From positions 116,381 to 180,380 of the forward strand of contig JAJKFJ010023213.1 of the NCBI GenBank assembly GCA_027382625.1: a stretch of 64,000 bases of DNA, read 5' to 3'. This DNA comes from Tetmemena sp. SeJ-2015. Lineage: Eukaryota > Ciliophora > Spirotrichea > Sporadotrichida > Oxytrichidae. The notes beneath the pieces were generated by a model that was given only the letters and a program-made list of their open reading frames with translations, did no database searches and was not told the DNA's origin. The translations under genes and the position numbers were made by a program. Positions 4,501-55,405 of the stretch are shown in pieces (position 1 is the stretch's first letter; every line of letters starts with the position of its first letter).

Positions 4501-6074
4501 TCAAACGTCTCTGTCGAAAAATGAGCAGGACAGAATTTAAGAATGCGCAAATTTTCACTGAGCTTGAATACCTTCTAATTCAAGATCGTTTTATTGATAG
4601 TGAGAGATTCAATCGATTAAGTTCCTTCCTCTAAAAACTTGGTCTTTTCAGTGAACTTGAAAGAATCAACTAGTGTGAGTTTAGTCAAGGAAGTTCCAAT
4701 GAAGTAATCTTCAAAGTTTTCTATGAAGTTATTCACGTTCAGGAAGTTTTAACCTGTGAGCAGTAATAGCTCAAACTCTTAAATAAAGGGATTATCTTTA
4801 AGCACACCTGACATCAGATTCATGACTGCTTCTCTTTCTCTATCTTCGTACTCTAATCTCAAAGATCTTATCTGAACATTAGTTCTGAATTACATGGACT
4901 GTGGATCTCTGAAATGTCTAGCTAGAAGATCTGAGGCAGATATAGAAAATTTGGTAAACCTCAAAGTCAAGTGTCTCAAATACTCGCTGTTGATTACGGA
5001 TTACGGGCTGAAGTATTTTGGGAATTTCTCATCATCAAAGATTCCCAATGAGAGCTTCTCTACTTAAGGAATAGTTGAAGTGTTTATTAATTTCTCATTG
5101 AGAGGATGAAAGATCTTCATATCCTCACAAGTAATCTTAACTTCTCTCGCTCTTGGTAAGTTGCTTATTAAATTAGAAAATTCTCTGTTCCATCTGAGCA
5201 GATCATCGATTGATTTATTACTCTTTCTTATGTTCTCTACTCTAGGTATTTTCAAGACTACTTTTTCACAGGCCTCTTATAGATATGCGTTGATGAGAGA
5301 CTAAAGTTTAGAGTTTAGTTGAGGCACAGTAGCAATCAGAAAATTCGTATCCAAAAGATCGAAAATGATGTGAAAGATTCTCTCATTGAAGGAATCTGCA
5401 GTCTTCAAAGATCTCAATGAGCTTAGATTATGCCTTACTTCGCTTTGAGAGTCTTAATCATTATCATCATTTAGTCTTTATCTTTTGCCAACAATTTAGC
5501 CTCAATAAACTGAGGTTGCTATACTAGTTGCCATCATTTCCTTATGACTTCTTTTCTTTGCTATCACTCCATCTTCATCTTGAATGTTAAGGTTCTTGAG
5601 TTTAGAGTCCATCACCTCCTCATACCTAAAATCGAACTTCTAAAAGATTGGCCTTGGTGCTTCACTCATCACGCTTATCTATTCCGAGTCCACTCCAATT
5701 TTCATATCCCTTCCATTTAGAATCTTCCTACTGAGAATGCTGAAATTTTCCGAGCTCTCTGGATTTATAGGATTGAAACAAGTGCTTATCATTTCATTTG
5801 CGTTTGTGTTCTGCTTTTCATTTTAATTTCCAAGGTAACTGCCCTCATCTTCAAAATTAACCCCATATCTATCTTTCAAGAAGTTGATCTAAGCCCCTTC
5901 TTTATTCTTTGAGTAGTTCATGATACTGATCATAGAATCGTTATCCAGATTTTGATTTCCACTAAGTAGCATTTCTCAGTCAAGATTTTTTAGGTCAAAC
6001 TAGTTCATGAGTGTGTCACTCTGCGCTTGAAACATATTAGAATTGAAGGATTGCTCTAAGTTGTCTGTTATCAT
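1509..6074 (-). CDS. Large leucine-rich-repeat-like protein with two in-frame TGA
   Basis: One reading frame runs from ATG at 6074 to TGA at 1509-1511, about 1,520 codons, with no frame slip over 4.5 kb. The protein is full of irregular L-x-x-L-x-I/L-x-x-N/T segments (for example around 1700-2070 and 4050-4430), resembling long LRR/F-box-like proteins. No catalytic motif is visible. Two TGA codons lie in frame near the N-terminus, at 5976-5978 and 5502-5504; the frame continues after both, with protein-like composition. If TGA stops translation, the main product would have to start at a later Met, near 5118. Alternatives are readthrough, TGG-to-TGA error, or removal during germline processing. 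Confidence 0.65.
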
Positions 6075-6369
6075 ATGTTCCTGGTCTATAATTTATCTAC
6101 TGCTGATTTTATAATAGATTTAATTTTGTAATTATTCTTCTCTTTCTTACTTTGTATGATTTAAATTTTGGGTGAGGGACAAGTATTAGAAACTTATTTT
6201 AAAATTTTAAAGAAAATTTTAATCTATAATTTGATTCTTTAATTAATTTGCTTTTGTATTAATTGGTGAATTTATCATTTACTGAGTAGATGACTCCCTC
6301 CCAAAATCTATCTCACTCTCTTTAGTTTTTAAGTTGTTGTTTTATTGTATTTTTAATCGTCTAAGGCTG

Positions 6370-6534
6370 CTTAGTTCCATCTCCAATAACTGTGACCTCT
6401 CCATTAAAGGTAACCAGGCCGACTTTACGGTCTGGCGCTCCGTGCTCCATCTCTGTTAATTGCTAGTCGATAGCTGCCTGCACACACTGCAATCTAGATA
6501 TATAGGTCACATTATTCTCTCCTTATAGCCTCTG
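6370..6534 (-). CDS. VWA-domain gene, block B (inverted continuation)
   Basis: Read on the minus strand from pointer CAGAGGCTA (6534-6526), this block gives Q-R-L-Q-G-E-N-N-V-T-Y-I-S-R-L-Q-C-V-Q-A-A-I-D and then K-V-G-L-V-T-F-N-G-E-V-T-V-I-G-D-G. These are the second helix and the beta-strand L-V-T-F of a VWA domain. Joined to block A through the 9-bp pointer, the frame is kept exactly. The block lies upstream of and opposite to block A, so an inversion is needed to build the gene. The left edge near 6370 is approximate. I could not find the next block in this window, so the gene is incomplete here. Confidence 0.75.
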
Positions 6535-6691
6535 TATCATCAATAAATGCAAACAGATCAGATTCACTTTATAAGGCGGAGGAAAAAGTAGGATATAATT
6601 AATTTCTTCGAATCAATTTATTAATGGATTAAGGGTTCCTATTAATTCAAACTATTTTACATTTATCCAAATATCTCAACATCCCCTCAAA

Positions 6692-6969
6692 ATGAACTCT
6701 GCAGGATCTCACGCGTACGTATCTTCAACAAAATTTCCATTACTATAAGTAAGAGCAACCAAGTGACTTACATATTGGAGGCGGCGGCGCAGGTGTACGA
6801 CAAGAAGCAGGGACTGGGGAGTCAGGACGTGACTGTCATCTTCTGCATCGACGTCAGTGGCTCCATGTGCGTCTCCCAACCCATCCAGGGCAAGCACAGC
6901 ATCAGGGGCGACAAGACTGCCCAACTCAGAGACCTCCTCAAGTACAGCGACGGATCTGACCAGAGGCTA
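6692..6969 (+). CDS. VWA-domain gene, block A (N-terminal part)
   Basis: This encodes N-Q-V-T-Y-I-L-E-A-A-A-Q followed by the VWA MIDAS motif I-D-V-S-G-S-M (DxSxS) and Q-L-R-D-L-L. The codons are markedly GC-rich compared with neighbouring genes, as in Hsp70. A possible start ATG is at 6692, with one frame slip near 6745. The block ends at pointer CAGAGGCTA (6961-6969). The following bases turn AT-rich and do not continue a VWA fold. The same 9 bp occur inverted at 6526-6534, where the domain continues on the other strand. VWA domains bind ligands through a metal ion; the role here is unknown. Confidence 0.75.
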
Positions 6970-9775: not shown

Positions 9776-10286
9776 CATAGACTCAAGTCTGCTAGTGAGT
9801 GTCTCCATTTGCAGAGCACTTGCACCTGCTAAGATATCGGCAGTGTGCTTCTCCTTCAGTGACATGTAATCCTGTAACAGCTCGCTCACTTCAGTTGCCA
9901 CCTTATCTACATCTCTCCTTGCCAGTTTTAACTCTTCCTCTAGCTTTGAAGTCTGCGATTCAAATTGGTTTCCGCCTGCATCAATTTGAATCTATAGCTT
10001 CTCAGTCACAAGCAGCAGTTTCTTATTGATCACATCGATTTCCTCAGCGAGTTAGTGGTCTTGCGCCTTCCTAACACTCTTCTCGGTGATTACGCTTGTA
10101 TTGATGTGTGCTTCTAGATCATTGACTGCCTTTGCCAGCCTTGAGACCTCGTCTTTACCCTTGCCTTCACCTTACTCATGCTTGACTTGAAGTGCGTAAA
10201 CTTCATTGACCACCTTCTCTAAATCCTCTACCATTGCATTATGTCTATTCTCCACTTCCTCATTCGTCTTATTGACAACGCTTACT
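9776..10286 (-). CDS. Scrambled coiled-coil gene, block 2
   Basis: The block enters through the 15-bp pointer at 10272-10286 and encodes V-V-N-K-T-N-E-E-V-E-N-R-H-N-A-M-V-E-D-L, continuing as a coil to R-L-E-S-M. It probably leaves at TCTATG (CATAGA on +, 9776-9781). The sequence directly upstream on the minus strand is in another frame, which would look like a frameshift if the locus were read as linear. Confidence 0.65.
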
Positions 10287-10294
10287 GTATATTA

Positions 10295-10494
10295 TCATCA
10301 AGCTCACTGAATTGGTCGACTCGCTCATCAAGGACCTGGAAATTGGTGAGCATGGTTTACTCGATGGCGTCTTTGACTTCCTTCATCTTGCCAAGACAGC
10401 GTCCCTCTGTGCCTTCCAGAAGCTTGTATAGCTCACTTCTGTAGATAGGTAGATGACCTTCTATTATCTCAAAGCGTTTGTAGATAAACATAGA
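10295..10494 (-). CDS. Scrambled coiled-coil gene, block 3 (probable)
   Basis: The block encodes S-M-F-I-Y-K-R-F-E-I-I-E-G-H-L-P-I-Y...V-D-Q-F-S-E-L-D. It shares TCTATG (10489-10494) with the end of block 2 and CTTGATGA (10295-10302) with the start of block 4. Both joins are in the same codon phase, giving R-L-E-S-M-F-I-Y and F-S-E-L-D-E-L-F. The 6- and 8-bp pointers are short enough to arise by chance, so the placement is less certain than the other joins. It could instead be the start of a different gene (an ATG lies at 10507). Confidence 0.5.
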
Positions 10495-10691
10495 ATCAGT
10501 AGTCATACTTATGATGAAATTATTTTAGCAGAGAGTTTATCCTTCTTCATGTTCTCATGGTTGATGAGATGCTTTTTGAATTGCTCTGTGAGCTTTCAAA
10601 TATTTATCGCATGATGATTAAGGAATAAAATAGAAAATTAATAATTATTGCTTGACTATCAGACTCCACTTTATCTTTCTCAAATGATGAA

Positions 10692-11046
10692 TCACTATTA
10701 AATTTAACTGGGAGTGCCTTTCTGGGACTTATTAGCGCCATCCTGAGCTGGAGTAGACTTTTAGAATGAGCTATTTGCAGCTGGTTGCTATTATTGCTGT
10801 TAGGGAGTAGTCTTCTGAGAGGACTACTGACGGGCACTCGGGAGACTGGCTGGCTCTTCCTTTGCCTCCTCTTTCTTAGGTGGTTGAGGTGGGGCATTTT
10901 GTTTAAGAATTGGGCGAGGGAGTGAGTTATCTTCTATGATGAGACTATTGACTGTGCGTTTGAGGTCGTTCTTGTCAGCTAGCAACTTAGGCATGAAATT
11001 CATAGTTTCTTAAACTCCTTTCAAACTGAACTCCTTCTCTGCCAGT
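10692..11046 (-). CDS. Scrambled coiled-coil gene, terminal block
   Basis: The block enters through ACTGGCAGAGAA (11035-11046) and reads L-A-E-K-E-F-S-L-K-G-V-Q-E-T-M-N-F-M-P-K-L-L-A-D-K-N-D-L. A Pro/Gln/Ser tail follows (Q-N-A-P-P-Q-P-P-K-K-E-E), ending at TGA 10692-10694. In the chromosome it lies between blocks 1 and 3, although it is the last block of the protein. Joined order is therefore 1-2-3-4-5, while physical order along the minus strand is 1-5-3-2-4. Confidence 0.65.
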
Positions 11047-11198
11047 AGATTTCATACATTTTCTCAAATATTAAATCTACAATAGAAAGAATTCTTTCAT
11101 TTTTTTAAATAAAAAGCTGAGGGATTACAACCAATTAGAGTAGTTGCCTGATTTTTCTTAAACAGTCGAACTTTCTTATAAAACCATAATATTATTTT

Positions 11199-13410
11199 TT
11201 GACAACGCTTACTAAAACTTCTCTGTTATCTTGAACGGCCTTTCTCAAAGTTTCCATGTTTGAATCAACCAGCTCACTTATATCTCTTTAATTTTTGCCT
11301 TTTATTGATTGCTCTGTGAGCTTTGCACAGAGTGTCTTGATGTTATCCAGTTGCTTTGTAACCTTGGATCCAATCTTGATAATTTCCTCGTCTATGTATC
11401 TGCTTAAGAAATGTGCTCGTTCAGCTGAGTCATGAGCCGCATCCTTCACATCTTTCATAAGTTTCTGTAAAGTCTTATCACTCTGCTCCTTTGATGCCTG
11501 CTACCTCGACCATAACGTTCTTAATCAGTCCCTAGATGAGAGTCTTATTCTCCCTCTCTGCTTAAAGCCTGCTATCAACCTCCATCTTAATCATTTCACT
11601 CAACTTCTCAGTTACTTGCACTTGCTAAGCTTTGAAGCCTTCAACATCGTACCTCACTCCATCAGCCACTCTTCCAATCTCAGTTCTCAGATTTATCTCT
11701 TATTGAGTTCGAGCTAGTTCTTCCTGCTTGACCCAGCCGTTTATATTTAAAATTTATGGTACGGATTTGAGTCTCAAGAGATGTTTGAAGAGATAGAATA
11801 GCTTCATCTTTGCGCTAGAACTCTGCTCTGACAATAGAGTCCATGGCTGCATATCTGTCTCGCATCTCCTCTCTTTCGTGCTTCGTCTTCTCTTAGTTCA
11901 TCTTATCCTTCACATCAAGTTAGTATCTAATGTCATCAAGAGATCTCATTCTCTCCTCTTGCTCAAGCAAAAGTCTGTTCACGAGGTCTGTCATCTTTAT
12001 CTCAAGTCTTCCTTAAAATTCATTCTAGACTTGAGATAACCTGTTTAAAGTCCTCGTTATAACGTAGAGAAGAGATTTCCAGTCTGGACAAGTTTTCCCT
12101 CTCCTTTGATTGCTCAGATTTGACAAAGTGTAAGTTCTGCTCCACGTTAAGTAATTTACTCTCTAGTCTTTCGACCACTTCATTCATCATATTCTGTCCA
12201 AGATCCCCTCTTCGCTCATTTGAAATAGTGTTTTACTCGGTCGATACGAGTCTCGCTTCAAGAGTTTGAATCCTGTTCTCATAATTGGAGTTCAGGTTTT
12301 GCATGTAGTCAATTTGCTTTTCATATTCTTAGCCCAGGCGTACTACTTCATTAAAGAGCACAGTAGACTTCTCCTTTTATTTGACTTGTCCCAAATGATC
12401 CTCATTCAGCTTTTCTTGGAGGAAAGTTCGCATTTGGGTTAGCTCTGAGTCACTCTGAGACTAGATGCTCTTAATGAAATTCATGAGCTCTCTATTGTTC
12501 TCATCAGCCACTCTAAGTCGCTCCCTCATCTCCATCTTGGTCTTTTCTTCCCTTCTAATATTCTCCTCCAAAAATCCTATCTTTGACATGACCTCGTTGA
12601 TGCTGAAGTGTTGCTAATCAGCTGAGTACTTGATCGTTGACTCTAGTTTGTTTCTAGCATCTCGCTCCGAATCAGCGATCACTTGCGCCTTCCTGTTAAG
12701 TTGTTGCACTTAAGAGTCAACTGAGTTTAGCTGAGAGATGAGATACTTTATCATTCGGTCTTGGTCCTCAAACTTAGAATCCAGATCATGCAGCAACGCC
12801 TTTCCATCCATAGAGCTTGGTCCAAATTTGAGCATCCGATCTTGAGATAGAATCTAGGGGAGACCTCCGTCGGTGAGGGGAGGCAACTGTGAGGAGGGTA
12901 AGAGCATGGAAGAGGCTACGTTATTAGATTATTGCTGTAACTGATTGCTCAGAGGGCGTTGCAGTCTCACTGGCCCTCTTGCATCAAAGCCGAATTCATC
13001 TCTAAAATCCATCTTCCCATCCTATCTCACATAATATTCTATTCCTCTTATATAATCTCGGAGAGTCAGATATCATAGTAGAGTTCTAGTTGTAGTCGAT
13101 GTTAGCAGTGGATGGTCCTTTGTAGTTTTTGATAGTGGGTGCTGCTGAGTTGAAGTCATCTAGGGACACTTTCTTCCTCAGGCGTCTGTCATTTTATTAG
13201 GATGAGGGTTGACCCCAGTTTTGCAAGATGTTTTAAACGTTTTGACTTGCATTCGACTAATTCCTTCCCAGGATCTATAAAAATACAGTTAAATATAGCA
13301 CTCAAAGCTTAAACAGTATTCTTAGACTTCAAAAAATGTGTTTTTGCTGGCAATGAATGAGAAAGGAATGAAAAGTGTTGGTAATTCTGACTTACTCTAG
13401 GCAAAGACAT
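11199..13410 (-). CDS. Scrambled coiled-coil gene, block 1
   Basis: The start is ATG 13410; exon 1 encodes only M-S-L-P-R, followed by a 121-nt GTAAGT...TATAG intron (13275-13395). A Ser/Gln N-terminus and a long charged coiled coil follow (roughly 12,980 down to 11,199). Internal features are a 19-nt intron at 12012-12030, a 13-bp IES at 11740-11752 and one frame slip near 11,505. A junction near 13,000-13,060 is unresolved. The block ends at pointer AGTAAGCGTTGTCAA (11199-11213). The same 15 bp at 10272-10286 continue the coil in frame (V-L-V-S-V-V-N-K-T-N-E-E-V-E). A structural cytoskeletal role is a guess from composition only. Confidence 0.7.
11740..11752 (-). other. Putative 13-bp IES, pointer ATAAA
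   Basis: ATAAA (TTTAT on +) lies at 11740-11744 and 11753-11757. Removing 13 bp of pure A/T joins Q-I-R-T-I to N-G-W-V-K-Q-E-E in frame. There is no GT...AG option. Confidence 0.55.
12012..12030 (-). other. 19-nt intron inside a perfect inverted repeat
   Basis: On the minus strand the insert starts GTCTAG and ends TTTAAG. Removal joins V-I-S-R to R-L-E-I-K in frame. The arms ATCTCAAGTCT and AGACTTGAGAT (11 bp each) form a perfect inverted repeat around it. Confidence 0.5.
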
Positions 13411-26458: not shown

Positions 26459-29400
26459 TCATTCGTGAAGTATGAGTAGCTGCTGAGCAGTGTCCCTGAG
26501 GATGTGGAGGTTATGGAAGGTGGCAAAGTTCCTCATTAGCTAGATGAACAACTTGATATCTGTGGTGCTGTTTAGCAAGTTCTAATTCATCAGCTTCTCT
26601 GGCTTCTGGTCTCCAAGAGTCTACTTGAACTAGCCTGTGCAATCACAGTACCTAGAAACCAGGGTGTTCTTCACCATCTTGCACTTTATGCAAGTCAAGT
26701 CTTAAAGCTGGTAGCTCACTGCTCTGCGATTCAGCAAGTCTACAAGTCTAACTATATTTTCTACTTTCAAATAAACTTAAGTCTTCTCTCAATCTTGCTG
26801 GCGTTAAGCGGTGTTGCACAAAGCTCACACTCCCATGATGCCTCCTGAACTTAAGAGGGATCGCTGTTCTGATTGTTGAGAGGAGTGAAGTTGAGTTTGA
26901 AGTCCCTGCAGATATCTAAGTCCGTGGCTGAGGAACAGAAATCGCAAATTACATCTGGAAGCACCAGAGTCAGACTAGGCTCGTTGCCTGCCACAACAGC
27001 CTCAGAGAACTCTTTCTCTCTCACTATGATGAGCATGTTTCGTTTCAGGCCAGTGACCTCTCCACTGAAGGCTTAGTCAAGACCGAATACGTTATTGCAG
27101 ATCTACTTGGTGAATTCAAGAGCAGCATTTTTGTAGTCGTTGTAAGAGCCAATCCTCTGTGGGAACTCCCAGATCTTCATCTCCTTTACTCTCTTCTCTC
27201 GCTCTCTTCGCTTTCTAATTCTGTCATCCTCTTCGTTTGCATAACCAGCTCCATTTGCATACTCATCCTCCTCGAACTCTTCTTAGTCTCCTAATCCTTT
27301 ATAAGTATTAATTTCACTTATAGTAAATCATGTATCCTTCTTGGCCGTATTCATCTGGGTCAATATCGAAGGCTCCTCCGCCGAGGTCGTTGTTATCGAG
27401 TAAGCCATCCTCGTTTGCGAGATCTCTGTACTGCTCTTGCTCTCTCTGCTTGACTTCATCTCTCTTAGCTAGGAATTCCCTGACTGAAGTGAACAGCTTC
27501 TGAGCCAACTCTGCTGTGATGAGTCTTGAGACGTACTCATGGTCCTTCTCCTTCTTGAAGTCAGTAACTGCATCCATGTACGACTCTATGCGCTTCTAGT
27601 CCTCCTTCATTAAGTCCCTCAATCACAAAAAAATAATTATCATTAAAAATGAGATACTTTAATCTATGAGTTGCATGTATATATTTTAAGAATGCATTCT
27701 TAGACTCAACTGGAGCTCCTTCTCTGTCAGAAGGCATTTCCTCTTCACTCTCATCTCCCTCCTCTCTATTCTGTCTCTCCCTACTGCCCAGCAACTTAGC
27801 TTTCTTCTGCTCTCTCAGCTTCACATTATAAACTTGCGATTTAAATATATTTCTTTAGTATATGATTAACTATTTAGTTTACTTGTAGACCTTGAGCACG
27901 AACTCACTCACAGTGATTTTGAACTTGCGCTGAACGGCCTCGGGCAGATGGAGTACCACATCCCAGTTGTTGAGCACCTTGCGGGGGTTGCTCTCCAGGA
28001 TGGTCGAGTAGTTGTAGAAGTCCTTGAACAGCAAGATCTTGTGGTAGTCGAACTCAGTCACGTTAACAAATAACAAACTACACACTCTATAATAATTTAA
28101 TAGTTAAGATACTGGAAGAGCTGATTCTGGTTGATGGTCTGGACCACGAACTGGATGAAGTTGTGGGCCTCCTCATACTCTTGGCGCTGAGTGTAGATGA
28201 ACAGCTTGTGGATGCTTCCAAAGACTACCTTGCACCAAGTTGCTTGAGTCTGAAGACTAGTTGGTAGAAACTCTTCTTAATCAGCTGGTGTACTAGTCTA
28301 TGTAGAAGTGGTTCGTAGAGCTTTGAACTGGCTGGAGAGGTGATCCATCTGTACAGATTCTCAAGTAGTTTCTTAGCCTCAGGGTTGTCGTTATAGTCAA
28401 GCACCCACATGTTTGCAAGGTCTCTCAGCTTCTTGAAGATAGAGGCGCAAGTCACATACTCGTCCAAGTCATTGTCAAAGTCCTAGTTGTTGTGAGCCAT
28501 TCTTCCAGGGCCACCACACCTGATCTCCTGCCGATCTGGCCATCTTCTTGCTTGTACTAAGTTGCTATCATAGACGCCTCTTCGAAGTCTTTGAGATACT
28601 CAGAATGACAATCGTGTTCAAGGCAAACTCTGATATATTAAGCTCAGCTACATACCCTCTATAGAACCCTTTCTCCTGGAGTTAAGGATTCTCAATCTCG
28701 TCTTGGAAGTAAATACGATAGTCCTTGTCTTCATGGCCTCCGAGATCTGGCTTGGAGGTGTCAGAATACCAAAGCAGATGTCTATTAGACTGAGTTTACG
28801 AGCGAACAGAGTATCAATAGCTGACGAAGCCATATCCTCAACATCTAAGTTACAAATGGGGATGAAGGCATAACGAGCCATGCGAATGCGGCTCACGAGA
28901 GTTTCGGGCATCTCGAAGAAGCGGTTAATCATGTTTCTGCAAGCCTCCTTAATCCAAGTAAGTCCATATTGGTTATCCTCTTGGTGTTGGAGAACTCTCA
29001 TGCATGGGAATTCATTGTGGAGAGTAGGTAGTCCCATAAACATGAGCTTCTCAGGAGGAAGTTCAGTCTGTACTATTGCAAGTGTTGCCTGCTTGTTCTT
29101 ACTTTTGTAGTCAGTAAGTAACTTATCAATCGCTTTAAAGCAAGCAGGAAGTTCAGCGAAGTAGTTTTAATTGTTACTGACTTGCCAGTCATCAAACACG
29201 GTCTCAAGGGGCACTTCACTTTCAAAAGCTTTCTTGAAATCTGCCAAAGTCAATGCATATAAGGACTTGAAGTTAACCTAACCTTACAACTGAGCAGTCT
29301 TTGCATCCTGAGCACTTACGATGGGTAGACTTAATTACTATCGAGTTAAAGATATATATGATGAAGAAGTGAGCCTCTTAAGATTACTCGAAGAAGAGAC

Positions 29401-32400
29401 CCCAGAAGGATCTATCATAAGATCCCTAAGACTAGAGCAGATAGATCTTGTCATAGCCTGAAGATGGCAAGTACTCCACTTGCTGACTGTTTCTATGTTC
29501 TAATTCTTCTAGTTTATAAGTTCTACCCAGTGCTTATTCATTCCTAGGAATCATGTTTCCTTTGGGCCTGACAAGACATCCCATCTCTGATATGGCTTTG
29601 AACTATAGAGGAGTCTTGGTTTCATAAACTCCCTCCACTGTTGGGTTCATGAGATGGTGATAGGTGAGATTATGGAACTTCTCCAGGAAGGTTTCCTCAT
29701 TGGACTCCCATTCGTATAGGTGGTAGGCCTTGCGCTCTCTTGGGAGGATCTTCTGGACCTTCTTGAAGTCTGGCTCGTTGCAGACAGTCTTAGAGTTGAT
29801 GTAGATGACTCTTGGAACCTTCAGTTTGACTGCAAACATCTGACCTTGCTCAGTCATAGCCCAGACTCTCATCAGAGCCTGGCTCAAAAGTCTCCTGTAC
29901 CTGCATGATGTGCCAGTTTGACTTTAGCACCACCTCATCCATGTTCCTGATGAAAGATGCCTAGTCCTTATTATAAAATTATAAAAATATTATATAAGAA
30001 AATTTAAATATAATTTTATTTTTTATTTTGGAAAATAGTTCCTAGTGGTCTTGCTCTGGGGGATGACTTGCTTCTCCTCTTTGATAGTTCTCCTGATCTT
30101 GCGCCAGTTGCTTTTCTGGTACTTGAGCCAGTCCTTGAAGTTGTGCTCTGGGTTGGGGCAGTCCTCTATGTTCCCGTACTTGTCGTCCTACTGCTGCCTG
30201 CTCCTTCTTCTGGAACTTCTAAAGCAAATAAATATTTTTTAATTCTTTCTTGTATTTTTATTTATGTTTAGCTGACGAACTTGTTGTTGTTGCTTCCGAT
30301 GGAAAGAGTCTTTGAATTGGCTTGGTGAGCTGGGAGGAGTGAGCTCCACCCATGTCTTCGATGTCGTTGGTGGAAGCAAGAGCATGAAGCGGCTTCGCCA
30401 TCTTCTAAAAGAAGGAAGTCAGATTCTTCTGCTTGTACTTCTCATTCTCCGCCTTTATCTTTCTTGTTCAACCAGTCTGGGTAAGGGATCTTAGGGACTG
30501 GGTTCAAGCAGTTCTGCTTTCATCAAACACATCAAAAATTATTACACTACACTTATATTTGATAGATTGCAGCTGGGATAGTGATGATCTTTTGAATGGT
30601 GGAGGCCACTCTCTCCTTGTAGTAGGACCAGTCGATGATGGTTCTCAAATCGAATTCAGTCATCGAGTAGTCCTTCAGCCACTTCTTCAGGAACTTCTTC
30701 ATCACTGGAGGGTCAGCTTCAAAGATGGCAGTAGGCACTGCTCTCTCAGCCACCTTAGCACCGAAAGGTTTCTTTGAGATGATGAACTTGACATTGATAC
30801 CCTTTCCCTTCACTATCTCAGGCCCCAAGAACTCACTCAGTCTGTGGCCACAAGTAATCATAGTACCCTTCTACCCCTCATAGTCGTTTAGAGCCCTCGA
30901 AAGGAATCTGGATTCTCCAATGTACTCGATCAGCTCAGTATCGTCAACATACTCTCCCTCTGTTTCCAGGATGTCGTACCATCTATCAGCCACCTCACCA
31001 CAAGCGTCATAGCACTCTTGTAGACTGCTTCCTTCCAAGAACTTAGAGAACACTTCCTCTTGGAAGATCTTTATAAGTTTGAGCTCTCCTCTACGTTTCA
31101 GCTCGAAGCCTTTCACCTCAGTCATCTTTCCGGCATGGTTGAAGACTGCATAACGCTTCTTGAGCATCTTGTTCTCTTCTTTGGAGGCTGGAATAACCAT
31201 ACACCGATAGGGTCCATCGATTTCGAAGAAAACTGACATCTCGAAGTTGGTCTCATACTTTAGAGTTCTCTTGTCCACAAGAGTTTGGTAAATTAATCTC
31301 TAAAAAGATATAATGTTAAATAATGAGATTAGATGAGTTTATTAGGCGTTTCCATACTTGTCATAGATAAGAACGTTGCACATAGTACAAGGGAAGGAGA
31401 AGCCAGTTTTACCTCCAGTGGAAAGTTGGAAAGTAAATTCTCAGGGAACCCTTTGGGAAGCAGGGTCCAGATTCCATCCGTGTCTAGCTCCAAGGGACAG
31501 CCAATTTGATCAATAAGCGATCTAGAGTCTTGGATGATGCAACTTCCAGTGTGAGTGACCATTGCAGCCATTTCCATAGAGTACCATCTGGCACCACGCC
31601 TCATCACATATCCATAGAAGGAGTTCAAGATGATCTTATGAGCTAGTTGCAAAGACTCGTAAAGATTCATGAGATTCTTAGCCTCTTCAACCCGAAGGGG
31701 ATCCCCTGATTAAACCGCCTCTTTTAATTTGCCTCCCCAAACTTTGACAAGATGCTTATAGTCATAGCGTCTGTCTCTAAAATCACGAACAGTATCAACA
31801 TAGAAGGAGTTCTCTCTCATGCACACTGTATCGTGCCTCATTACTGTCTTAGTTTCATGCACTTGTTTGTACATCATTCTGGAGTACTCTTTGATTCTCT
31901 GCTTTAGTTTCTACTGCTCTACCTCAGTTGTCAGGAATTGGTTACTCCTTGCTGCTTGTCCTAGCCCTTCTAATTAAAATCGTGAGTTGATCATGAGTTA
32001 ATTATACACATAACTTCTGTTGATCTCTCAGTTCATACTCAAGCTGTTGCTTTACCTATTCATACTCCCTACGCCCTAGAGGGAATAAGTCTCCTCTCCA
32101 CTACCAATCCATTTCTCGCTTGCATTTGTTGTCTTCATGATTGAAGATGCAGCCGGCACACACTTGCTCATTTACAATGGCAACAGGCTGAAGTCTGTTA
32201 GAGAGGATGATGTTCGGGTACATTTAAAATGAAAAGGCATTCACTATTTAGTAAACATAGCAGCTACATCTACGTGATAAATAAGTGGTTCGACATTGTA
32301 TACAGGGCACTTTGCGGTGATGAACTCCAACTTCGAAATAATTTCATTCTTAACCTCCTCATAGTTAGTGACCTTGCTCTTATCTACCTTCAACTCGATC

Positions 32401-34581
32401 TCTAAAGCAAAGTCCATGATCTTCTTTCCACATTTTATATCAACCCTTCATATCCACTCTTCTTCGAGAACGAACTTCAAAAATTAGTATCTAAGAGATG
32501 AACTAAGCTTATTAAAAAGTAAAACTTATGAGGGATGTCACTTCTATAGACTCCAGTACGCAGACACTCCACATGCCCTCCGATATAAGTGTCTGAATCG
32601 ATTAGCTGGCCATTATAGAAGCGCTCGAACTTTTCCTACTGCTTATTAGGGAAGATGATGTTGCACCTAAATGCTTGGGCCATTAGCAGATTCTCGCAGA
32701 GAGTACCAGAACCCTTCCTTAGCACTTCATCAGGATTTGTTGGGATGATAGTGCAGAGGGCGAAAATGAAATCGTGGATCATCTTCTAGTAAAGGAAGTA
32801 AGTGGCTACTGCATCTGAGACTGAATACTCAGCCAATTCCTAAGGCCTTGTCCTTGCATAGGGTACCATGTTCTCAGGATCTAGTTCGACTGGGTCATAA
32901 CCAAGCTTTGCCTTGGTGACTGCCTTAAGTCCATGAGAGCCTTGAGGTAAGTAGGCATCTCTCTACACCCAATAGAAGCAGTCCATGTGCACTGCAAAGC
33001 GACTAGCAAATTCAGATTAGCTGTTTTAGAACACTCCTATTTGTTCTTCAAGTGTCATATCATAGTGGCGGCATCTGTCCTAAATGAATACCCAGTCGAA
33101 GAAGTCTCCGTTGAAAGTTGTGAAGATGAAGGGACGGGTGTCTCTGATATGCTAGAAAAACTTGTCTAACAAGGCTTTCTCATCTGGTTCATTAAAGCAT
33201 TTAAGATATCTATAGATTTCAATTCATTGAACACTTTGAAGGTACCTATATCGTACTCTGGCTTAGGACTGTATTCGAAGTCTTGCACATCGGCCCTACT
33301 ATCTATCTATTGGTAATTAGGTAACCCTTGCCGTCTATCACATAGGATATCATCATGACCTGATCGAATCTACTATCTGGGAACTTCAAAGCAGCCTTTG
33401 TAGTCTCAATATCGAAAGCTAGAATTCTCAAGTCTGCCTTGTCCAGTTTCTCCTTGAGGTGAGTTATCTTTGTGATGAGTGGACCATCCATGTCCACTTC
33501 ATACCAAAAAGCGCATCTTATCTCGTTGTCTATTGCTACTCTGATGTGATAAACTATACTCAGCTATCCTCTTCTCAAAATAAGAGCTTAATATCTCTCC
33601 TCTATTATTTTACTTGAGTTTAGTTGACATCATATTCTCTGAGCTCGTGGATCTTAGCTAGGTATTAGGATTCTTATTTCTCCTGGCCTTAGATATTATT
33701 GGGGTCATAGAAGCCCTCATAGACTTCTTGTGTTTCCTTGTTGCGTTTGTTGTTCTCCACTATGACTTGCAGTTCTGATCTGACTTGCAGAAGGTCACTG
33801 ATGTTTTTGAAAGACAGCTTCAGGAATTTCTAAGTCTCACCCGATAGATGATTTACTAAGCTCAGGTCTTCCTTGTCAACGTAGTCAAGTTTAGAAATCA
33901 AGTTCTCATAAGTCTTATTCAGATAGAATATTGCTATATAATATATTGTCTAAAGGAAGTAGACCCTCATTGAAAATACGATTTAATTTTAAAATACCAC
34001 CTCCCTATAAAGTAAAGTTTAAAAGGCAATGCCTTCCTGGGTAATCATTTGCGGGTATAGCCTTTCTCCAATCCTTAACACAGAGCTTAAATGAGTTAAA
34101 GTGGAAGGCGAGGGTGAGCTATTGATTGATTATTTACTTACTTGACAACCTCAGCAGCGCAAAGTATATAAAAGTAGGGTTCATACTGTAGCATCGCCTT
34201 GAACCAGTTATCTACTAATATATATCTTAATAGCTGCATTCATTTTATTTTACAGTTTCCTGATGGGTCGATGAAGAAGAGTAGTATGGCGGATAAATCG
34301 CCTCCATTGGTATCTTGGAAAGTAGTAGTCTTGAAATTAGCTAGGTACCCTACTCTTTTGCTCTAAGCTTCCTCGAAATTTATTCCAATACTAAAATCAT
34401 TATTCTTAAGATCGACATTTTAAGGAAATGATAAAGTCTCTTTAGTATTGCTGCTTACCTTGACTCAAAGAAATCAGAATCGAACTTTGCCTTTCTAGGC
34501 TAAATTGCGGGCTTTTAGTTATTGAACCTTCGCATCTATTTGATTATAACTCCCTCCCTCCGTTTTTAAAGATATCATCAT
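26459..34581 (-). CDS. POLE: DNA polymerase epsilon catalytic subunit
   Basis: Family B leading-strand replicase. The start is at 34581 (M-M-I-S-L-K) and the stop TGA at 26459-26461. In order along the minus strand: N-terminal domain with Y-E-P-Y-F-Y-I (about 34,170); 3'-5' exonuclease motif F-D-I-E-T-T (about 33,410) with Q-V-M-M-I-S-Y; polymerase motif [14 protein letters not shown] (about 32,200, split by an IES); motif [16 protein letters not shown] (about 31,610); motif C L-D-T-D-G-I-W (about 31,480); the long inactive C-terminal half; and two cysteine clusters (C-D-F-C about 26,940; C-I-K-C...C-D-C about 26,660). Order is linear. There are several single-base slips (about 31,425, 30,465, 29,870, 29,330), GT-AG introns of 36-40 nt and at least four IESs. 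Confidence 0.95.
27299..27317 (-). other. Putative 19-bp IES in POLE, pointer TATAA
   Basis: TATAA repeats (TTATA on +) lie at 27299-27303 and 27318-27322. The 19 bp contain an in-frame TGA. Removal joins M-I-Y-Y-K to G-L-G-D-Q-E-E-F in frame. A 21-nt GT...AAG intron at this site would not restore the frame. Confidence 0.55.
27618..27657 (-). other. GT-AG intron (40 nt) in POLE
   Basis: The minus strand begins GTATCTC and ends GATTGAG. Removal gives H-R-L-K-D-L-M-K-E-D-Q-K-R-I-E-S-Y-M in frame with the following exon. Confidence 0.65.
29960..30040 (-). other. Putative 81-bp IES in POLE, pointer ACTAGG
   Basis: ACTAGG (CCTAGT on +) lies at 29960-29965 and 30041-30046. The 81 bp between are about 90% A/T with no usable GT...AG pair. 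They separate the R-R-T-I-K-E-E-K-Q exon from [10 protein letters not shown]. The join needs one extra C in the adjacent C5 run to keep frame. Confidence 0.6.
30517..30552 (-). other. GT-AG intron (36 nt) in POLE
   Basis: The minus strand begins GTGTAGTG and ends GATGAAAG. Removal joins I-T-I-P-A-A-I-Y-Q to [12 protein letters not shown], which matches the conserved spacing of the family. Confidence 0.7.
31281..31334 (-). other. IES (54 bp) in POLE, pointer AAACTC
   Basis: AAACTC (GAGTTT on +) lies at 31281-31286 and 31335-31340. The insert has no TGA and is a multiple of three, but its translation has no counterpart in the family. Removal leaves [18 protein letters not shown], the length expected before F-F-E-I-D-G-P-Y. 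There is no GT at the edge. Confidence 0.75.
32220..32254 (-). other. IES (35 bp) inside POLE catalytic motif A, pointer ATGT
   Basis: ATGT (ACAT on +) lies at 32220-32223 and 32255-32258. Unremoved, the motif reads [13 protein letters not shown]. After removal it reads [17 protein letters not shown], the invariant family motif A. No GT...AG pair could give the same join. Confidence 0.85.
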
Positions 34582-35631: not shown

Positions 35632-35784
35632 GTTACGATATATGTATTAAGTTATGTTGTTTATGCTTCAAGGAGAGAGCATCGTTTATGTATTATAAAG
35701 TGAAACTAGCTATTTTTGGCTGAATGAACGATTGTATAATCTTCTTTCTTTATTTCTTAGTCTTGATTTCCATGATATCTATCC

Positions 35785-36115
35785 TCTCTAATGAGGAAAT
35801 AGTTGCTTTGGCATCTGTGGAGGCACTTGAGGCACTTAACGCTCCCACTCTGGGCCACACCACCTATTTCGAGAAGTTAGATAACTCCCTCTACAAGTTA
35901 GTTGCTTCCAACACTGCACCAGCTTCTATCCAGGGTCTTGCTCACGCACTCTCTGACGCAGACTTGAAGCCCATCGTTGACAAATTCGCCAAGACAAGAA
36001 GGTTTTCCAAGAACACCTCGGACAGGGATTCTTGAAACTAACTAACTTGGGTCACGATGAACTCCAAAACATTGAGAACTTCATCGTCAAGCACCCCTTC
36101 GCTAAATACATGTGA
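35785..36115 (+). CDS. Ascorbate-peroxidase-like gene, C-terminal block
   Basis: The block starts at pointer TCTCTAATGAGGAAATAG (35785-35802) and reads S-N-E-E-I-V-A-L-A-S-V-E-A-L-E, then L-K-P-I-V-D-K-F-A-K and L-G-Q-G-F-L-K-L-T-N-L-G. This is the C-terminal half of class I heme peroxidases. One base slip occurs near 35,997. Stop TGA 36113-36115. Bases 35,724-35,784, upstream of the pointer, only look like a short hydrophobic ORF. The N-terminal half lies 3 kb downstream on the same strand, so the blocks are in reversed order. The proximal heme-ligand His region (normally S-G-G-H) is replaced by A-S-V-E. Confidence 0.85.
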
Positions 36116-36609
36116 GCACTCATAGGTCATACTAGCATTTCTTAGTCAGACCACTCTGCAACTAGCTTGCTTCACAGCTTGTTATTTAAACCTAAGTTAA
36201 TTCCTCCCATAAACTTTAATAAACTTGCTTCTTCATTCTCTCATTGAATTTAATTAATCTTAATACCGTTTTAATTATAAGGTGAAAGAATTTGGTATAA
36301 TAATTTTCTCAATTAAAGTTGTGCTAAAAGGAATTAGGCTTAGCTCCATAATGAAGTCAAAAATATAATAACACCAGCATCAACCCCTTAATTACTCATT
36401 CCAGAGCGTCAAAGGCCCCACAGATAAGTCTTTCCATCAAGCTTAGAGCAATTAACCTCCCCAAAGAGAGGCCATCAACTCTTTTCTAATATCAACATGA
36501 AGGCTTGCTTATAGTTAATATAGTGATACCTTTTATAAATTTTTAATTTGAAGGCCGGTTAAACTGGAAGTAATTTTAACAGGAAGAAATTCAGCTCGTA
36601 ACTGCAAAG

Positions 36610-37230
36610 TCAGGGTAAAAACAGCCCCAGTCCTCCTCCTTTGGGATTCAGGGATAAACAAAGACCCAAATTCAACAACTAACATTTTTCAAAGAAAGCA
36701 CTCAAAGCTCTTAACGTGGACTCATAAAACAAGAATTATATTTAAAGAAAATTAAGAAGTCTATTATTTTGACTCACTCTAGTAGCAACTTAAAATATTA
36801 GTAGACAAGTCTGTCGAAGCAGCAGACCCACAGCAGTCAGAAGAACTATTATAGAAACGATGGCTACTGCAGTAGTACTTGAGTACCAAGCATACCTCAC
36901 AAGAGAGTTTCTAGGTGCAAGGGCTAAAGCGTATTCCATCTGGGTCAGCCTTTCGAAGTTAGTTTTAGGAGAGAGATAGAGAGCTTCATGAACTTAGACC
37001 TGTCCATAAACAGCAGCTTATCAACAAATCCTTAGCCTACATAACTTAATACAGGCAGCAGAAGAATTCATCATCCATATTGTATTATTCTTAAATATTA
37101 ATAAGAAACGAGATGATCTGGTTTCAGACGAGAATATTGTAAACAAAGAACCACCCATGACCAAGTAAGTTAATCCAAGCAAGAAATAAAAGTTAGTATT
37201 TTTATTCTAGAAAAATTTAGTCTTATCCAT
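36610..37230 (-). CDS. Hypothetical membrane protein
   Basis: ATG 37230 starts M-D-K-T-K-F-F-Q-N, followed by a hydrophobic stretch (Y-F-L-L-G-L-T-Y-L-V-M-G-G-S-L-F). A second strong helix (A-V-A-I-V-S-I-I-V-L-L-T-A-V-G-L-L-L) sits near 36,850 after E-A-L-Y-L-S-P-K-T-N-F-E-R-L. The frame changes near 37,100 (possible 20-nt GT...AAG intron) and again near 37,010. Stop TGA 36610-36612. It lies between the two peroxidase blocks. Family unknown. Confidence 0.45.
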
Positions 37231-37367
37231 TCTCGTTTTAGAGAGGACCACTTTCAGATTGAGGACTAGATATTCAGGCAAAGTTTGCGATAAGATGGAG
37301 GCTCGAGCATGGCTCTCAGAATGTATAACTTGTCTAAAATTCAGAAGAGGATAGCTGCGCTTCTGCC

Positions 37368-38640
37368 ATGGCAGGCGGTTCTCCTGGAAAAAACAAAAAT
37401 GGAGTTTCTCCAGGGAAAAGAGTCAAGACATCTGGAGCTTCTCCAAGTGTTAATAAGAGCTCAGTCAGTGGTGCAGCACTATTCTTTGGAAAACCTGTCC
37501 TTATTGATTCTTAGTCTTATTTAAAGGGGAGATTCTTCACTTATGTTTTTGCTATAATAAGCAAGTGAGCTTTGAAGGAGTGGGGCATGAAGGGAACGAT
37601 GACGGGTTAAATAAAGGCTAAATAAAAACTACTAAGGAGCTCGGAATTAACCCACCTTCTTTTTTCGATGAAGACACAGACAAGTTTTTCCTAAAGAGGA
37701 AGCTAGCAAGGAAGAATCTAATGATGGGGAGATCTACTGCAAACTCTCCTTTCGTCAGTGATTCTAGAATAGAAAAGTATAATATTTATCATCAGATTCA
37801 GTGGACTTCTTGAATCAAACAAGCGTTTTCCAACCACACTTGATGCAGAGGTCGTCAGGTAGTGGAACTCGTTTCCCGAACTCCTCTCAACTTAACTTTG
37901 AATTGAATTTGAGAACACCAATGCCCTCTAACGCACCACAGCATTAAGCAAGTCTGCTTTAGACCTAAGGTACCATAGGAGATAGACTAGCCACTACTAC
38001 ATCAGCAGCCGGAGGAGCTGGATACGATAAAGATGGAAAGCGAAGATTCGATCTCTACATGAATAGCCATCAGTACATCAGCAATCTAGAGTTGAAGGAA
38101 GGGGACAAGAAGTTAACTAATCATTTAAGAAAATTACATCTAATTCATTCTCATAAATTCTATGAGAAAAAGGTATTTTATAATCACGTGAAGTATCTTA
38201 GGCTATTTAAGGAGACAATGTATTCCTAACCTAGATTGGGAGACTTATCAGTTTTGGAGTTGAGTCCAGAATAGGAGCAGGATCTGAGGCGTTTCCGAGA
38301 TCAGCCAATAAGCTTTAAGAACCAGAATGATATCACATTCTTATACAAAGAAAGAGACTTCAGCCGCTCTAGCCTGAATTGGGTAGATCAACTGAGAAGA
38401 GATGGTTTTGAAGAAGTAGAAAAAGGTTCCACTTACCATAGAGGAGCAACAGGAAGTGTTAGCAATAATGATAACGCTATAGGGAAGAGGCGGTAACCGT
38501 TAGAAACATGGCAAATTAAGAAAGAGCAGCGTCATCTCTTAAGATTTCAGAAGGAGAGAGCCTTAGAGCAAAATAAGTATCAAGAACCTAAATACTTCCA
38601 GCAATGTAGATCTCTTTCACTGAGTCTAAAATTTTCAATT
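37368..38640 (+). CDS. Hypothetical protein nested between peroxidase blocks
   Basis: ATG 37368 (M-A-G-G-S-P-G-K-N-K-N-G-V). A 17-nt GT...AAG intron at 37545-37561 leads into V-S-F-E-G-V-G-H-E-G-N-D-D-G. A second short GT...CAG intron near 37,778 and a frame slip follow. The rest is a long frame with S/N/Q-rich sequence and a helical part (Y-I-S-N-L-E-L-K-E-G-D-K-K-L, L-S-P-E-Q-E-Q-D-L-R-R-F-R-D). The end is not clear and is probably near 38,640. No family recognised. Confidence 0.5.
37545..37561 (+). other. Ultrashort 17-nt intron
   Basis: GTTTTTGCTATAATAAG. Removal joins F-F-T-Y to Q-V-S-F-E-G in frame. Without it the frame stops at TGA. No flanking repeat offers an IES alternative. Confidence 0.55.
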
Positions 38641-38770
38641 TCATTTGAAGTAAAACTTTCAAGATCTCTCAATTTCATCGATATTAAAGTTAGACTAGTA
38701 TTCTTTGAGAAAGTTGATTTGTGCTTTTATAATATTTCTTTATTCTTTGCTTAGAGCGACCTATTATAAA

Positions 38771-39239
38771 ATGGCACGTAAATCTCTTTAGGGCATGCAA
38801 TACCTTGCTGAATCAATTTCTCCCTTCATGCATGCTCAGATCAAGACTTATCCCCTCTCCTCTTATCTGAGACTCCTCTGGAACGACGCTCTCACTTATG
38901 ATCCCGCTACCAAGCGCGGTGGACTCCGCTGCAACTACAAGAACTCACAGGTTGCTAGAGCTCCCTAGAACAAGCACCTACAGCTGCTTGCTCTTAACCT
39001 CGAGCGCATAAAGGTGAATAGAGTTGATGCTATGTTGGACAACTTGAGTGACGCAGATTATTTGGCAGCTGCTGGAGTCTTAATCCTTAAGGAGGCAAGC
39101 GGAGTTAATGTACTACAAGAATTCTCTTATGGCAGAGAGGAGGCCACTCCTCAGACACTTGGAAGCCCCAACCTCATCCCAACTCACTCTAACTTCAAGC
39201 AGAGCTTGCTCGCAAGAGGCTTCTCTAATGAGGAAATAG
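38771..39239 (+). CDS. Ascorbate-peroxidase-like gene, N-terminal block
   Basis: ATG 38771 (M-A-R-K-S-L-Q-G-M-Q-Y-L-A). The class I peroxidase scaffold is clear: Y-L-R-L-L-W-N-D-A-L-T-Y-D, G-G-L-R, A-D-Y-L-A-A-A-G-V-L-I-L-K-E-A-S-G, Y-G-R-E-E-A-T and F-K-Q-S-L-L-A-R-G-F-S-N-E-E-I. The catalytic distal His of the L-x-W-H-D motif is Asn here, so a normal peroxidase reaction is unlikely. The block ends at the 18-bp pointer (39222-39239). After it the sequence reads I-E-D-Y-Y-K-Y-K and leaves the family. Joined to 35785 it forms a protein of about 265 residues. Confidence 0.85.
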
Positions 39240-50679: not shown

Positions 50680-50745
50680 GAACATTCTAGTTGTCTCCTG
50701 ATCTTTCGATTCGAATTTTCCAGAAGCGCGGTTTACTATATATAA
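50680..50745 (+). promoter_or_regulatory. Heat-shock elements and TATA box of Hsp70
   Basis: GAACATTC at 50680-50687 (two inverted GAA units) and GAATTTTCCAGAA at 50713-50725 (three perfectly alternating units, GAA-nn-TTC-nn-GAA) match the HSF-binding consensus. TATATATAA at 50737-50745 follows, 65 bp before the ATG. The leader contains ACAACAACAACAC. Confidence 0.8.
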
Positions 50746-50809
50746 GCCCTTTGCTGCCTTAATTTATAAAGTTATTATACTAACAACAACAACACTCTCA
50801 AATATACAA

Positions 50810-51895
50810 ATGTCAGGACCAGCTATTGGAATTGATCTAGGAACCACCTACTCCTGCGTCGGAGTATGGCTCAACGACAAGGTCGAAATCATCCCCAACG
50901 ACCAGGGTAACAACACCACCCCCTCCTACGTCGCCTTCACCGAGGAGGAGAGACTCATCGGAGATGCCGCCAAGAATCAGGTTGCCAGAAACCCCAAGAA
51001 CACCGTCTTCGATGCCAAGAGACTCATCGGAAGAAAGTTCTCCGACAAGCAGATCCAGGAAGACATGAAGCATTGGCCCTTCAAGGTCGAGCAAGGCCCA
51101 GGAGACAAGCCCATCATCATTGTTGAATACAAGGGAGAGAACAAGAAGTTCCAACCCGAGGAGATCTCATCCATGGTGCTCGTCAAGATGAAGGAAATCG
51201 CTGAGGCTTACCTTTCCAAGACCGTCAAGAACGCAGTCATCACTGTCCCCGCTTATTTCAATGACTCTCAGAGACAAGCCACCAAGGACGCCGGTACCAT
51301 CTCCGGTCTCAACGTCCTCAGAATCATCAACGAGCCCACCGCTGCCGCTATTGCATACGGACTCGACAAGAAGTCTTCCCAGGAGAAGAACGTGCTCATC
51401 TTCGATCTCGGTGGTGGTACTTTCGACGTCTCCCTCCTCACCATTGAAGAGGGAATCTTCGAGGTCAAGGCCACCAACGGTCACACCCACTTGGGAGGTG
51501 AGGACTTCGACAACAGACTCGTCGACTACTGCGTTGCTGAGTTCAAGAAGAAGACTGGCATCAACATCGATGGTAACGCCAGAGCTCTCAGAAGACTCAG
51601 AACTCAGTGCGAGAAGGCAAAGAGAATTCTCTCCGCTGCCCATCAGGCCCCCATCGAATGCGAGACTCTCGCTGAGGGTGAGGACTTCAACACCCAGATC
51701 TCCAGAGCCAAGTTCGAGGAGCTCTGCATGGACCTCTTCAGAAAGTGTATGCCACCCGTAGAGAACGTGCTCAAGGACGCCAGTCTTGCCAAGGGACAAA
51801 TCCACGAGGTCGTCCTCGTCGGAGGTTCTACCAGAATCCCCAAGGTTCAGCAGATGCTTTCCGACTTCTTCAACGGAAAGACCCTCAACAGATCC

Positions 51896-51927
<32 letters not shown>

Positions 51928-52765
51928 TGCCGTCCAGGCTGCCATCCTCACTGGTGAGGGAGACTCCAACGTTAAGGATCTCCTCCTCCTCGACGTCGCC
52001 CCTCTTTCCCTCGGAATTGAGACTGCTGGCGGTGTCATGACCATCCTCATTGGAAGGAACACCACCATCCCCACCAAGAAGTCCCAGATCTTCACCACCT
52101 ACGCTGACAACCAGCCAGGCGTGCTCATCCAGGTCTTCGAAGGAGAGAGATCAATGACCAAGGACAACCACTTGCTCGGCAAGTTCAACCTTGAAGGTAT
52201 CCCACCCGCTCCCAGAGGTGTTCCCTAGATTGAGGTCACCTTCGATATCGACGCCAACGGAATCCTCAACGTCTCCGCCGTCGACAAGGGAACTGGAAAG
52301 ATCAACAAGATCACCATCACCAACGACAAGGGCAGACTCTCCAAGGAGGAGATCGAAAAGATGGTCAACGACGCCGAGAAGTTCAAGGGCGAGGACGAGA
52401 AGATGAAGAAGAGAATCGAAGCCAAGAACAGCTTCGAGAACTACTGCTTCCAGATGAAGAACACCCTCAACGACGAGAAACTCAAGGAGAAGTTCACCGA
52501 AGACGACAAGAAGGTCATCGAGGACGCCTCCAAGGAGGGTCTCCAGTGGCTCGAGGGCAACCCAATGGCTGAGCCCGAGGAAATCGAGGCCAAGCAGAAG
52601 GAAGTTGAGGCCAAGTACAACCCCATCATGATGAGAGTCTACCAGGCTGCCGGTGGAGTGCCAGGAGGTATGCCAGGCGGTATGCCCGGCGGTATGCCAG
52701 GCGGCTTCCCAGGCGGTGCTGGCGGCGCTGCCCCAGGAGGCGGTGATGTCAACGACCTTGACTGA
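50810..52765 (+). CDS. HSP70: Cytosolic-type heat shock protein 70
   Basis: 651 residues, complete. The N-terminal ATPase domain has [36 protein letters not shown] and V-G-G-S-T-R-I-P. The substrate domain starts around [11 protein letters not shown]. The C-terminus has a tandem G-G-M-P repeat as in many protist cytosolic Hsp70s. It ends D-V-N-D-L-D rather than the usual E-E-V-D, which could alter TPR co-chaperone binding. TAG at 52226-52228 is an internal Gln codon; the stop is TGA 52763-52765. Codons are strongly GC-ending, unlike most neighbours. No intron, IES or frame slip. Confidence 0.98.
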
Positions 52766-54139: not shown

Positions 54140-54990
54140 ATGGAAGGCAATAGGGAACTGATAGCTAACTTAGAGCCTCATGACTTGTCTATGTTCTTAG
54201 AATACATGCCACTTTTGGAAAGTCAAGCCCTTAACGATTATGGATAGGTAAGTATCCTGCCTCTTCTTTCTTCCTAATTTTGCAATTGTTGCCTAAACTT
54301 TGATGCCTTTCTTAGCTTGAGCTTTTGTTAGGAGCCTCCTGCTGAGTATGAAGTTGTAGATGGTCAAGAAGACAACGACGAAGATGAATTTAAGTCGTCG
54401 ATAGATTTGCTAATGGTCACCAACGAGAATTTTGAGTCTAAAATTTTAGAAGAAATCAAACTTTAAGAGCAAAAAGAGGGAGAGGAAGATCAGTAGCAAG
54501 AAGATCTGTAGCAAGATGAATAAGAGGAGCAAGAAGAAGAAGAGGAAAAATAAAGTTCTGGAGTACAGGAGGAAGGGGTAAACGAGGTTCTTCCTCAACT
54601 TGAAATGGAAGTCCCGTAATAGCCACTTGATGAAGTCTCAGTAATGCGCAAAATTCTGGAAGAGAGAATAGTTCGCCAATCTTCTATGTCTTAAACTTTG
54701 TCATTACAGTTTTAAGCGTGAGTGAGTATTTAAATATCTAAAGGGGAGGCCCCTAATTCATAGAAGAAGAGTGTGATTAAGCCTTAAGAGCTCCCCAAGA
54801 TACATGAAAAAGAAAGTCCTGAGCAATTGCTAAAGGAAATAAGGTTGAGGAATTCTCAGATAGGCTCCTCCTCTCACTCTGGAAAAATTATGAGCAATAG
54901 TGTTTCTCAAAATATTCCATAATATCCTCCACCAAAGCCCTAAATATAGCAATAGATTAAGCCATAGCCTACATAAGGAGTGAATAATAT
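54140..54990 (+). CDS. Hypothetical acidic Q/E-rich protein
   Basis: ATG 54140 (M-E-G-N-R-E-L-I-A-N-L-E-P-H-D-L). A GTAAGT...GTTAG intron begins at about 54,249 and ends at about 54,340. It joins D-Y-G-Q to E-P-P-A-E-Y-E-V-V-D-G-Q-E-D. A long acidic Q/E tract follows, then M-R-K-I-L-E-E-R-I-V-R-Q. At 54719-54721 a TGA lies in frame; the same frame then continues as G-E-A-P-N-S-Q-K-K-S-V-I-K-P-Q-E-L-P, so another small intron or readthrough is likely. The gene runs into dispersed repeat B near 54,995. No family. Confidence 0.5.
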
Positions 54991-54994
54991 AGTT

Positions 54995-55405
54995 GGAATT
55001 TTAATAAAAATCGGTGATTGGTCAAAATAATAAATGAAGAGTTGCAAAATGGTGTCAGTTGAAATCGCTGATTTACCCCCTGATCTGTAGCTTGTTCGAT
55101 AGAGAATCAAAAATTAATAAGAGTTTCTTCTTTAATCATCTTCACAGTACCTCACAGCAGCGAGATATGCCTCGCGCATTCTTCTTCTTCCTCATCTTCA
55201 TTTTCATTAATACTTGTGTCGCTTATAATTCTTTACTGAGCACTCCCACACAAAAGTTGCAAGGATAAAAAGTTCTTAGAATTCTATGCTGAATCGAATG
55301 GTGTAATTATTATTCAAATCTGAGATCCTTCAACTGCCTCTCATTTAATCCATTTTAATTTAATATCTAATTTAATTCTCTTTTTTATTAAATTCTCAGC
55401 TATAA
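54995..55405 (+). repeat. Dispersed direct repeat, copy B
   Basis: Partner of 50069-50461. This copy contains a short frame beginning M-P-R-A-F-F-F-F-L-I-F-I-F-I-N-T-C-V-A-Y (signal-peptide-like, 55168 onward) that is not kept open in copy A. The repeat is therefore more likely non-coding or a decayed gene fragment. Confidence 0.75.

Follow-up and report, generated by a model that had tools for sequence, protein, structure and literature searches.

The 64,000-nucleotide stretch analyzed here (hereafter the window; all coordinates refer to it) belongs to the Tetmemena sp. SeJ-2015 assembly GCA_027382625.1 (contig JAJKFJ010023213.1, positions 116,381 to 180,380, forward strand). At 35785–39239 it holds the two halves of a peroxidase-like gene, the C-terminal half lying upstream of the N-terminal half on the same strand; a preliminary description made from the letters alone had placed them in this way, its coordinates were correct, and the order is repeated on a second contig (C3955) of the same assembly. 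The gene is limited by an ATG at 38771 and a TGA stop codon ending at 36115, and both halves carry one copy of an 18-bp repeat, referred to below as the pointer. The halves are listed as coding parts of putative macronuclear-destined segments (MDSs), for reasons that are developed below.

38771–39239, plus strand: N-terminal half, coding part of MDS 1, from ATG to pointer (open reading frame and Pfam)
39222–39239, plus strand: 3′ pointer copy of MDS 1 (exact 18-mer)
35785–35802, plus strand: 5′ pointer copy of MDS 2 (exact 18-mer)
35785–36115, plus strand: C-terminal half, coding part of MDS 2, from pointer to stop codon (joined frame)
35988, plus strand: one-base gap relative to C3955 that breaks the window reading frame, probably a consensus error (haplotype alignment)
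36116–38770, no strand: sequence between the halves, missing from the joined coding sequence (join and homologues)

The 18-bp repeat and the second haplotype

The 18-mer TCTCTAATGAGGAAATAG is present in exact copies at 35785–35802 and 39222–39239, and no further match with up to three mismatches was found in the window. Its codon phase is identical on the N-terminal and C-terminal sides, the junction reads G-F-S-N-E-E-I-V-A-L-A across the join, and the flanking sequences diverge immediately on both sides; the exact copies, the shared phase and the joined reading had all been noted in the preliminary description and were recovered here. Among the 20 direct repeats of at least 14 bp in the window (after low-complexity filtering) the 18-mer ranks second in length, while first-order Markov sequences (20 simulations) contain 0.1 per window that reach 18 bp, and base composition gives a probability of 5e-11 that 18 bp match at one particular register. 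The species' own assembly (146.2 Mb) contains the exact 18-mer six times, as three pairs on the contigs C2499 (which carries the window), C3698 and C3955. No third or intact copy of the gene was found in this assembly, only the two halves, once per contig, and the stretch 3′ of the N-terminal pointer likewise occurs there only in its three locus copies.

Since C2499 and C3698 were identical over both 3-kb stretches compared, they were counted as one copy of the locus. C3955 differs from C2499 by 69 and 8 substitutions in the two 3-kb stretches and aligns to 21354–51053 of the window at 95.8% identity; it is a separate haplotype, about 4% different, with the halves in the same order and a copy-to-copy spacing of the 18-mer of 3,434 bp (3,437 bp in the window). 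When its halves are joined with a single copy of the 18-mer, 260 residues without an internal stop are obtained. The joined frame has roughly 181 synonymous and 599 non-synonymous sites, and the two haplotypes differ in it by 5 synonymous changes and 1 non-synonymous change (P = 0.003 against the neutral expectation in a one-sided binomial test, which is small and takes no account of mutation bias).

The coordinates given earlier for the C-terminal half hold, with one correction: the window copy is not a single open frame, since a C is missing near 35988 relative to C3955. Single C's are also absent from the window contig at 34843 and 35220 relative to C3955, where they break the frame of a neighboring gene: an open frame of 385 codons in C3955 (34479–35632) corresponds in the window to overlapping pieces of 151, 233, and 171 codons. 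As this frame is whole in one haplotype and split in the other, the window contig probably carries consensus errors at 34843, 35220, and 35988.

Homologues of the joined protein

The joined protein matched the Pfam peroxidase profile PF00141 with 35.9 bits, above the curated cut-off of 27, while the N-terminal half alone scored 25.5 and the C-terminal half alone gave no match. It also matched 17 PDB sequences, 16 of them ascorbate peroxidases with alignments crossing the join (best match E 1.1e-10, residues 32–241), the 17th being a thylakoid lumenal 29 kDa protein aligned over residues 23–104 only. All 11 proteins recovered in the first homologue search were gapless through the join. The profile search, in which the 7,998 candidates with the most shared words were scored, returned at least 74 homologues, and 67 of the 74 are continuous through the join in an alignment of all of them with the query (a homologue was counted as spanning if at least 15 residues were aligned in the 51 columns on each side and no gap fell at residues 150–160). 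Between residues 145 and 170 these 67 are free of insertions and deletions. The other seven are short (98–153 residues): five do not contain the junction residues, one ends at the junction, and one (P0071) contains them with only 4 residues aligned in the columns after.

Nearest to the query are P0002 (74% identity) and P0008 (63%), two partial sequences that also cross the join. An annotated Halteria grandinella gene, FGO68_gene12209, encodes 267 amino acids, covers 100% of the query and is found on a 971-bp contig, which matches the size of a spirotrich gene-sized chromosome.

At the positions (located by PDB alignment) that we take to be those of the distal and proximal catalytic histidines, the query has Asn38 and Glu163, and therefore lacks the pair of residues that marks an active ascorbate peroxidase. 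Among the homologues with a residue at these positions, the distal one is Asn in 29 of 29 (His in none), and the proximal one is Glu in 59 of 68 and His in one of 68. The proteins look like a conserved family of non-classical or inactive peroxidases without both catalytic histidines.

Germline context and the sequence between the halves

The assembly has the features of a ciliate germline genome in which UAA and UAG encode glutamine and telomeres consist of C4A4 repeats. C4A4 repeats gave 67 matches, 9 of them at base 1 of a contig; a control with the pattern reversed was uninformative, the pattern being the same in both reading directions. Five matches to the TEBP-beta family were found, against none in 14 control genomes, and the best piece agrees at all 155 of its 155 aligned residues with the beta subunit of the telomere-binding protein in the PDB, an entry from Sterkiella (Oxytricha) nova; this match points to that species or a close relative as the probable source of the window. 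The germline map of the TEBP-alpha gene is published and has an odd-even order. In this assembly TEBP-alpha lies scrambled on C3416 (about 5132–6949, minus strand), with the query-fragment pieces 49–65 and 76–110 preceding 1–50 and 63–75; it demonstrates, as a positive control, that scrambled germline order has survived assembly. Another TEBP-alpha candidate, on C3207, was rejected as a collinear paralogue, the close match to the PDB sequence being the one on C3416.

Further features of the window, including those enclosed by the two halves, are the following (IES, internal eliminated sequence):

26501–33898, minus strand: DNA polymerase epsilon, internal control outside the gene, normal order, short IES-like inserts
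37368–38620, plus strand: possible gene with two frame changes bridgeable by short direct repeats (no homologue found)
37760–37794, plus strand: 35-bp IES candidate in the enclosed plus-strand frame, GATTC at 37760 and 37795 (in-frame join keeps the frame open)
36613–37020, minus strand: possible frame with hydrophobic stretches (by eye), weak (open reading frame)

In the polymerase gene, a 35-bp insert is placed between AATGAA copies at 33223–33228 and 33188–33193, and without it the sequence reads V-F-N-E-P-D-E, as in the PDB protein (by eye). The downstream neighbor is a WD40 gene, and an HSP70 gene (50705–52762) has no interruptions.

Two unrelated coding regions had been proposed between the halves, of which the one on the plus strand (37368–38640) is plausible and the one on the minus strand (36610–37230) is weak. 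The plus-strand frame opens at an ATG at 37368; the bridge across its first frame change is ambiguous, that at GATTC being the most convincing. Its open run is unremarkable in length (0.21 runs as long are expected in the region with TGA as sole stop), and it had no homologue at E 0.001 among 907 candidates in a protein search, no Pfam match, and no paralogue found in the assembly. The minus-strand frame had no Pfam match at E 0.01 and no paralogue in the assembly, where its three matches are all copies of the same locus. Across six frames of 33.9–38.8 kb, Pfam gave three weak matches, all under their cut-offs, and a codon-usage score trained on the polymerase epsilon, WD40, and HSP70 frames and on the N-terminal half did not discriminate well enough to decide on the enclosed frames. 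Nested genes between the halves are a possibility.

Other repeats occur in the window outside the locus. At 10272–11324, direct repeats of 15 bp (10272, 11199) and 17 bp (10580, 11308) alternate along a minus-strand, coiled-coil-like frame. The 15-mer pair fits a 927-bp in-frame IES (by eye), which solves these repeats in part; the second copy of the 17-mer lies inside this candidate IES and may belong to a segment that is scrambled or duplicated. An exact direct repeat of 25 bp, with copies at 50162 and 55089, was rejected as a pointer, being located within or near a diverged dispersed repeat; a diverged repeat at 54985–55404 is related to C3955:28644–29055 (82.7% identity over 423 columns).

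A probable two-piece scrambled gene

We interpret the locus as a scrambled hypotrich germline (micronuclear) gene whose coding MDSs lie in the order 2-1, in the same orientation, with a common 18-bp pointer, a reading to which we assign a probability of about 0.93. Segments of one gene are found in non-consecutive order in both haplotypes, and the ends that would be joined carry the identical pointer in coding register. The preliminary description had already suggested scrambled MDSs, a view strengthened by the in-phase pointers of two haplotypes and the TEBP context, and its proposed join gains support from the 67 of 74 continuous homologues, the better Pfam score of the joined protein, and the failure to find an intact copy in the assembly.

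By analogy with established hypotrich biology, in which MDSs are joined at pointers with the help of RNA templates (as described in general terms in PMC5940158 and PMC4702850), MDS 1 would be joined by its end (39239) to the start of MDS 2 (35785) while the somatic nucleus develops, one pointer copy being kept. A maternal RNA template would guide the join, the intervening DNA would be removed, and telomeres would be added. The predicted product is a 783-nt reading frame for an ascorbate-peroxidase-like protein of 260 residues, probably carried on a ~1-kb gene-sized chromosome.

Three points weigh against this interpretation. The join is deduced from germline sequence and homologues, the C-terminal frame of the window's own copy is broken by the base missing near 35988 (it is intact in C3955), and the codon-usage score separates coding from non-coding sequence poorly and so adds little. 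By this score the N-terminal half falls in the 4.5% tail among windows free of TGA, while the value for the C-terminal half, calculated with a wrong frame offset, is left out of account.

The alternative that survives best, if improbable, is that a tandem duplication left behind two truncated copies, of which one lost its C-terminal half and the other its N-terminal half, the 18 bp being a stretch kept by both. However, the sequences differ right beside the 18-mer on either side, the halves are both complete and complementary, no trace of a second N- or C-terminal half was found in the assembly, and most differences between the alleles are synonymous. Regarded as the origin of the locus, a tandem duplication is compatible with a scrambled gene. 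An assembly artefact that placed the halves in the wrong order is more improbable still: some contigs of the assembly are duplicated (C2499 and C3698 showed no difference in the stretches compared) and one-base errors are probable, but the diverged C3955, with its own substitutions, has the same order at nearly the same spacing (3,434 vs. 3,437 bp). That the halves are separate genes for two polypeptides, with the DNA left unjoined, is scarcely credible, for while an in-frame ATG lies at 35724 upstream of the C-terminal half and the N-terminal frame runs at least 11 codons beyond the pointer, the homologues contiguous through the join include an annotated spirotrich gene, and an exact in-phase 18-mer at that very spot would be a coincidence.

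For the scrambled gene, the route of assembly can also be considered. Given direct repeats and a 2-1 order, one recombination event at the pointers would excise a 3,437-bp circle bearing the assembled gene and leave a single pointer copy behind in the chromosome. Of the scrambled genes that one such event can assemble on an excised circle, a two-piece 2-1 locus is the simplest. In Oxytricha rearrangement, 86 circles may carry MDSs, 6 of them with MDSs mapping within an IES of another locus (PMC6765146). The same source reports circles at just 0.04% of scrambled eliminated sites, with imprecise junctions instead of pointer recombination, and given this rarity and imprecision we consider it unlikely that the cell assembles the gene via an excised 3.4-kb circle rather than by cutting first. 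If it did, the circle would carry the finished peroxidase-like gene together with any genes between the halves, whose fate would hinge on the assembly of the outer gene, and the chromosome would keep a one-pointer scar. The Oxytricha circles are reported (PMC6765146), whereas the one considered here is a prediction from the 2-1 order of the direct repeats. With one junction, a locus-unique 18-bp pointer and two distinguishable haplotypes, the locus would offer a clean case for asking whether descrambling uses a circle.

The locus shares with other hypotrich scrambled genes (TEBP-alpha, actin I) MDSs out of order, direct-repeat pointers, and UAR codons for glutamine; where their MDSs form a long series, however, this locus has only two that are coding and a single scrambled junction. 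Scrambled pointers in Oxytricha average 11 bp (PMC6765146) and pointers there range from 2 to 20 bp (PMC5940158), so that 18 bp is near the long end of this range, while those of Euplotes woodruffi are much longer (PMC9797194). Scrambling affects 12.8% of the 15,811 somatic contigs processed in O. trifallax, 1,301 macronuclear contigs (8%) enclose MDSs of other loci in "Russian doll" arrangements, and 62.3% of the contigs with interleaving depth 1 are scrambled (PMC5940158). Like those nested loci, the present one has a long gap between its scrambled pieces that may hold other coding sequence; there the nested elements are MDSs of other loci (PMC5940158), whereas here the enclosed frames are candidate genes. 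Scrambling is also described in other spirotrichs (PMC10901763). No description of a scrambled peroxidase gene or of a Sterkiella nova micronuclear assembly was present among the literature titles and abstract openings listed, a coverage outside which most subscription papers fall.

The Halteria grandinella gene FGO68_gene12209 has the same length, order of parts, and continuity through the join, and is contiguous on its contig of ~1 kb, whereas the germline form of its counterpart here is in two pieces with their order reversed. Germline sequence alone is enough to recognize such a scrambled gene when the repeat, its codon phase, and the continuity of the family are taken together. The locus is a new and unusually simple example of two-piece scrambling, which, like nesting, was already known.
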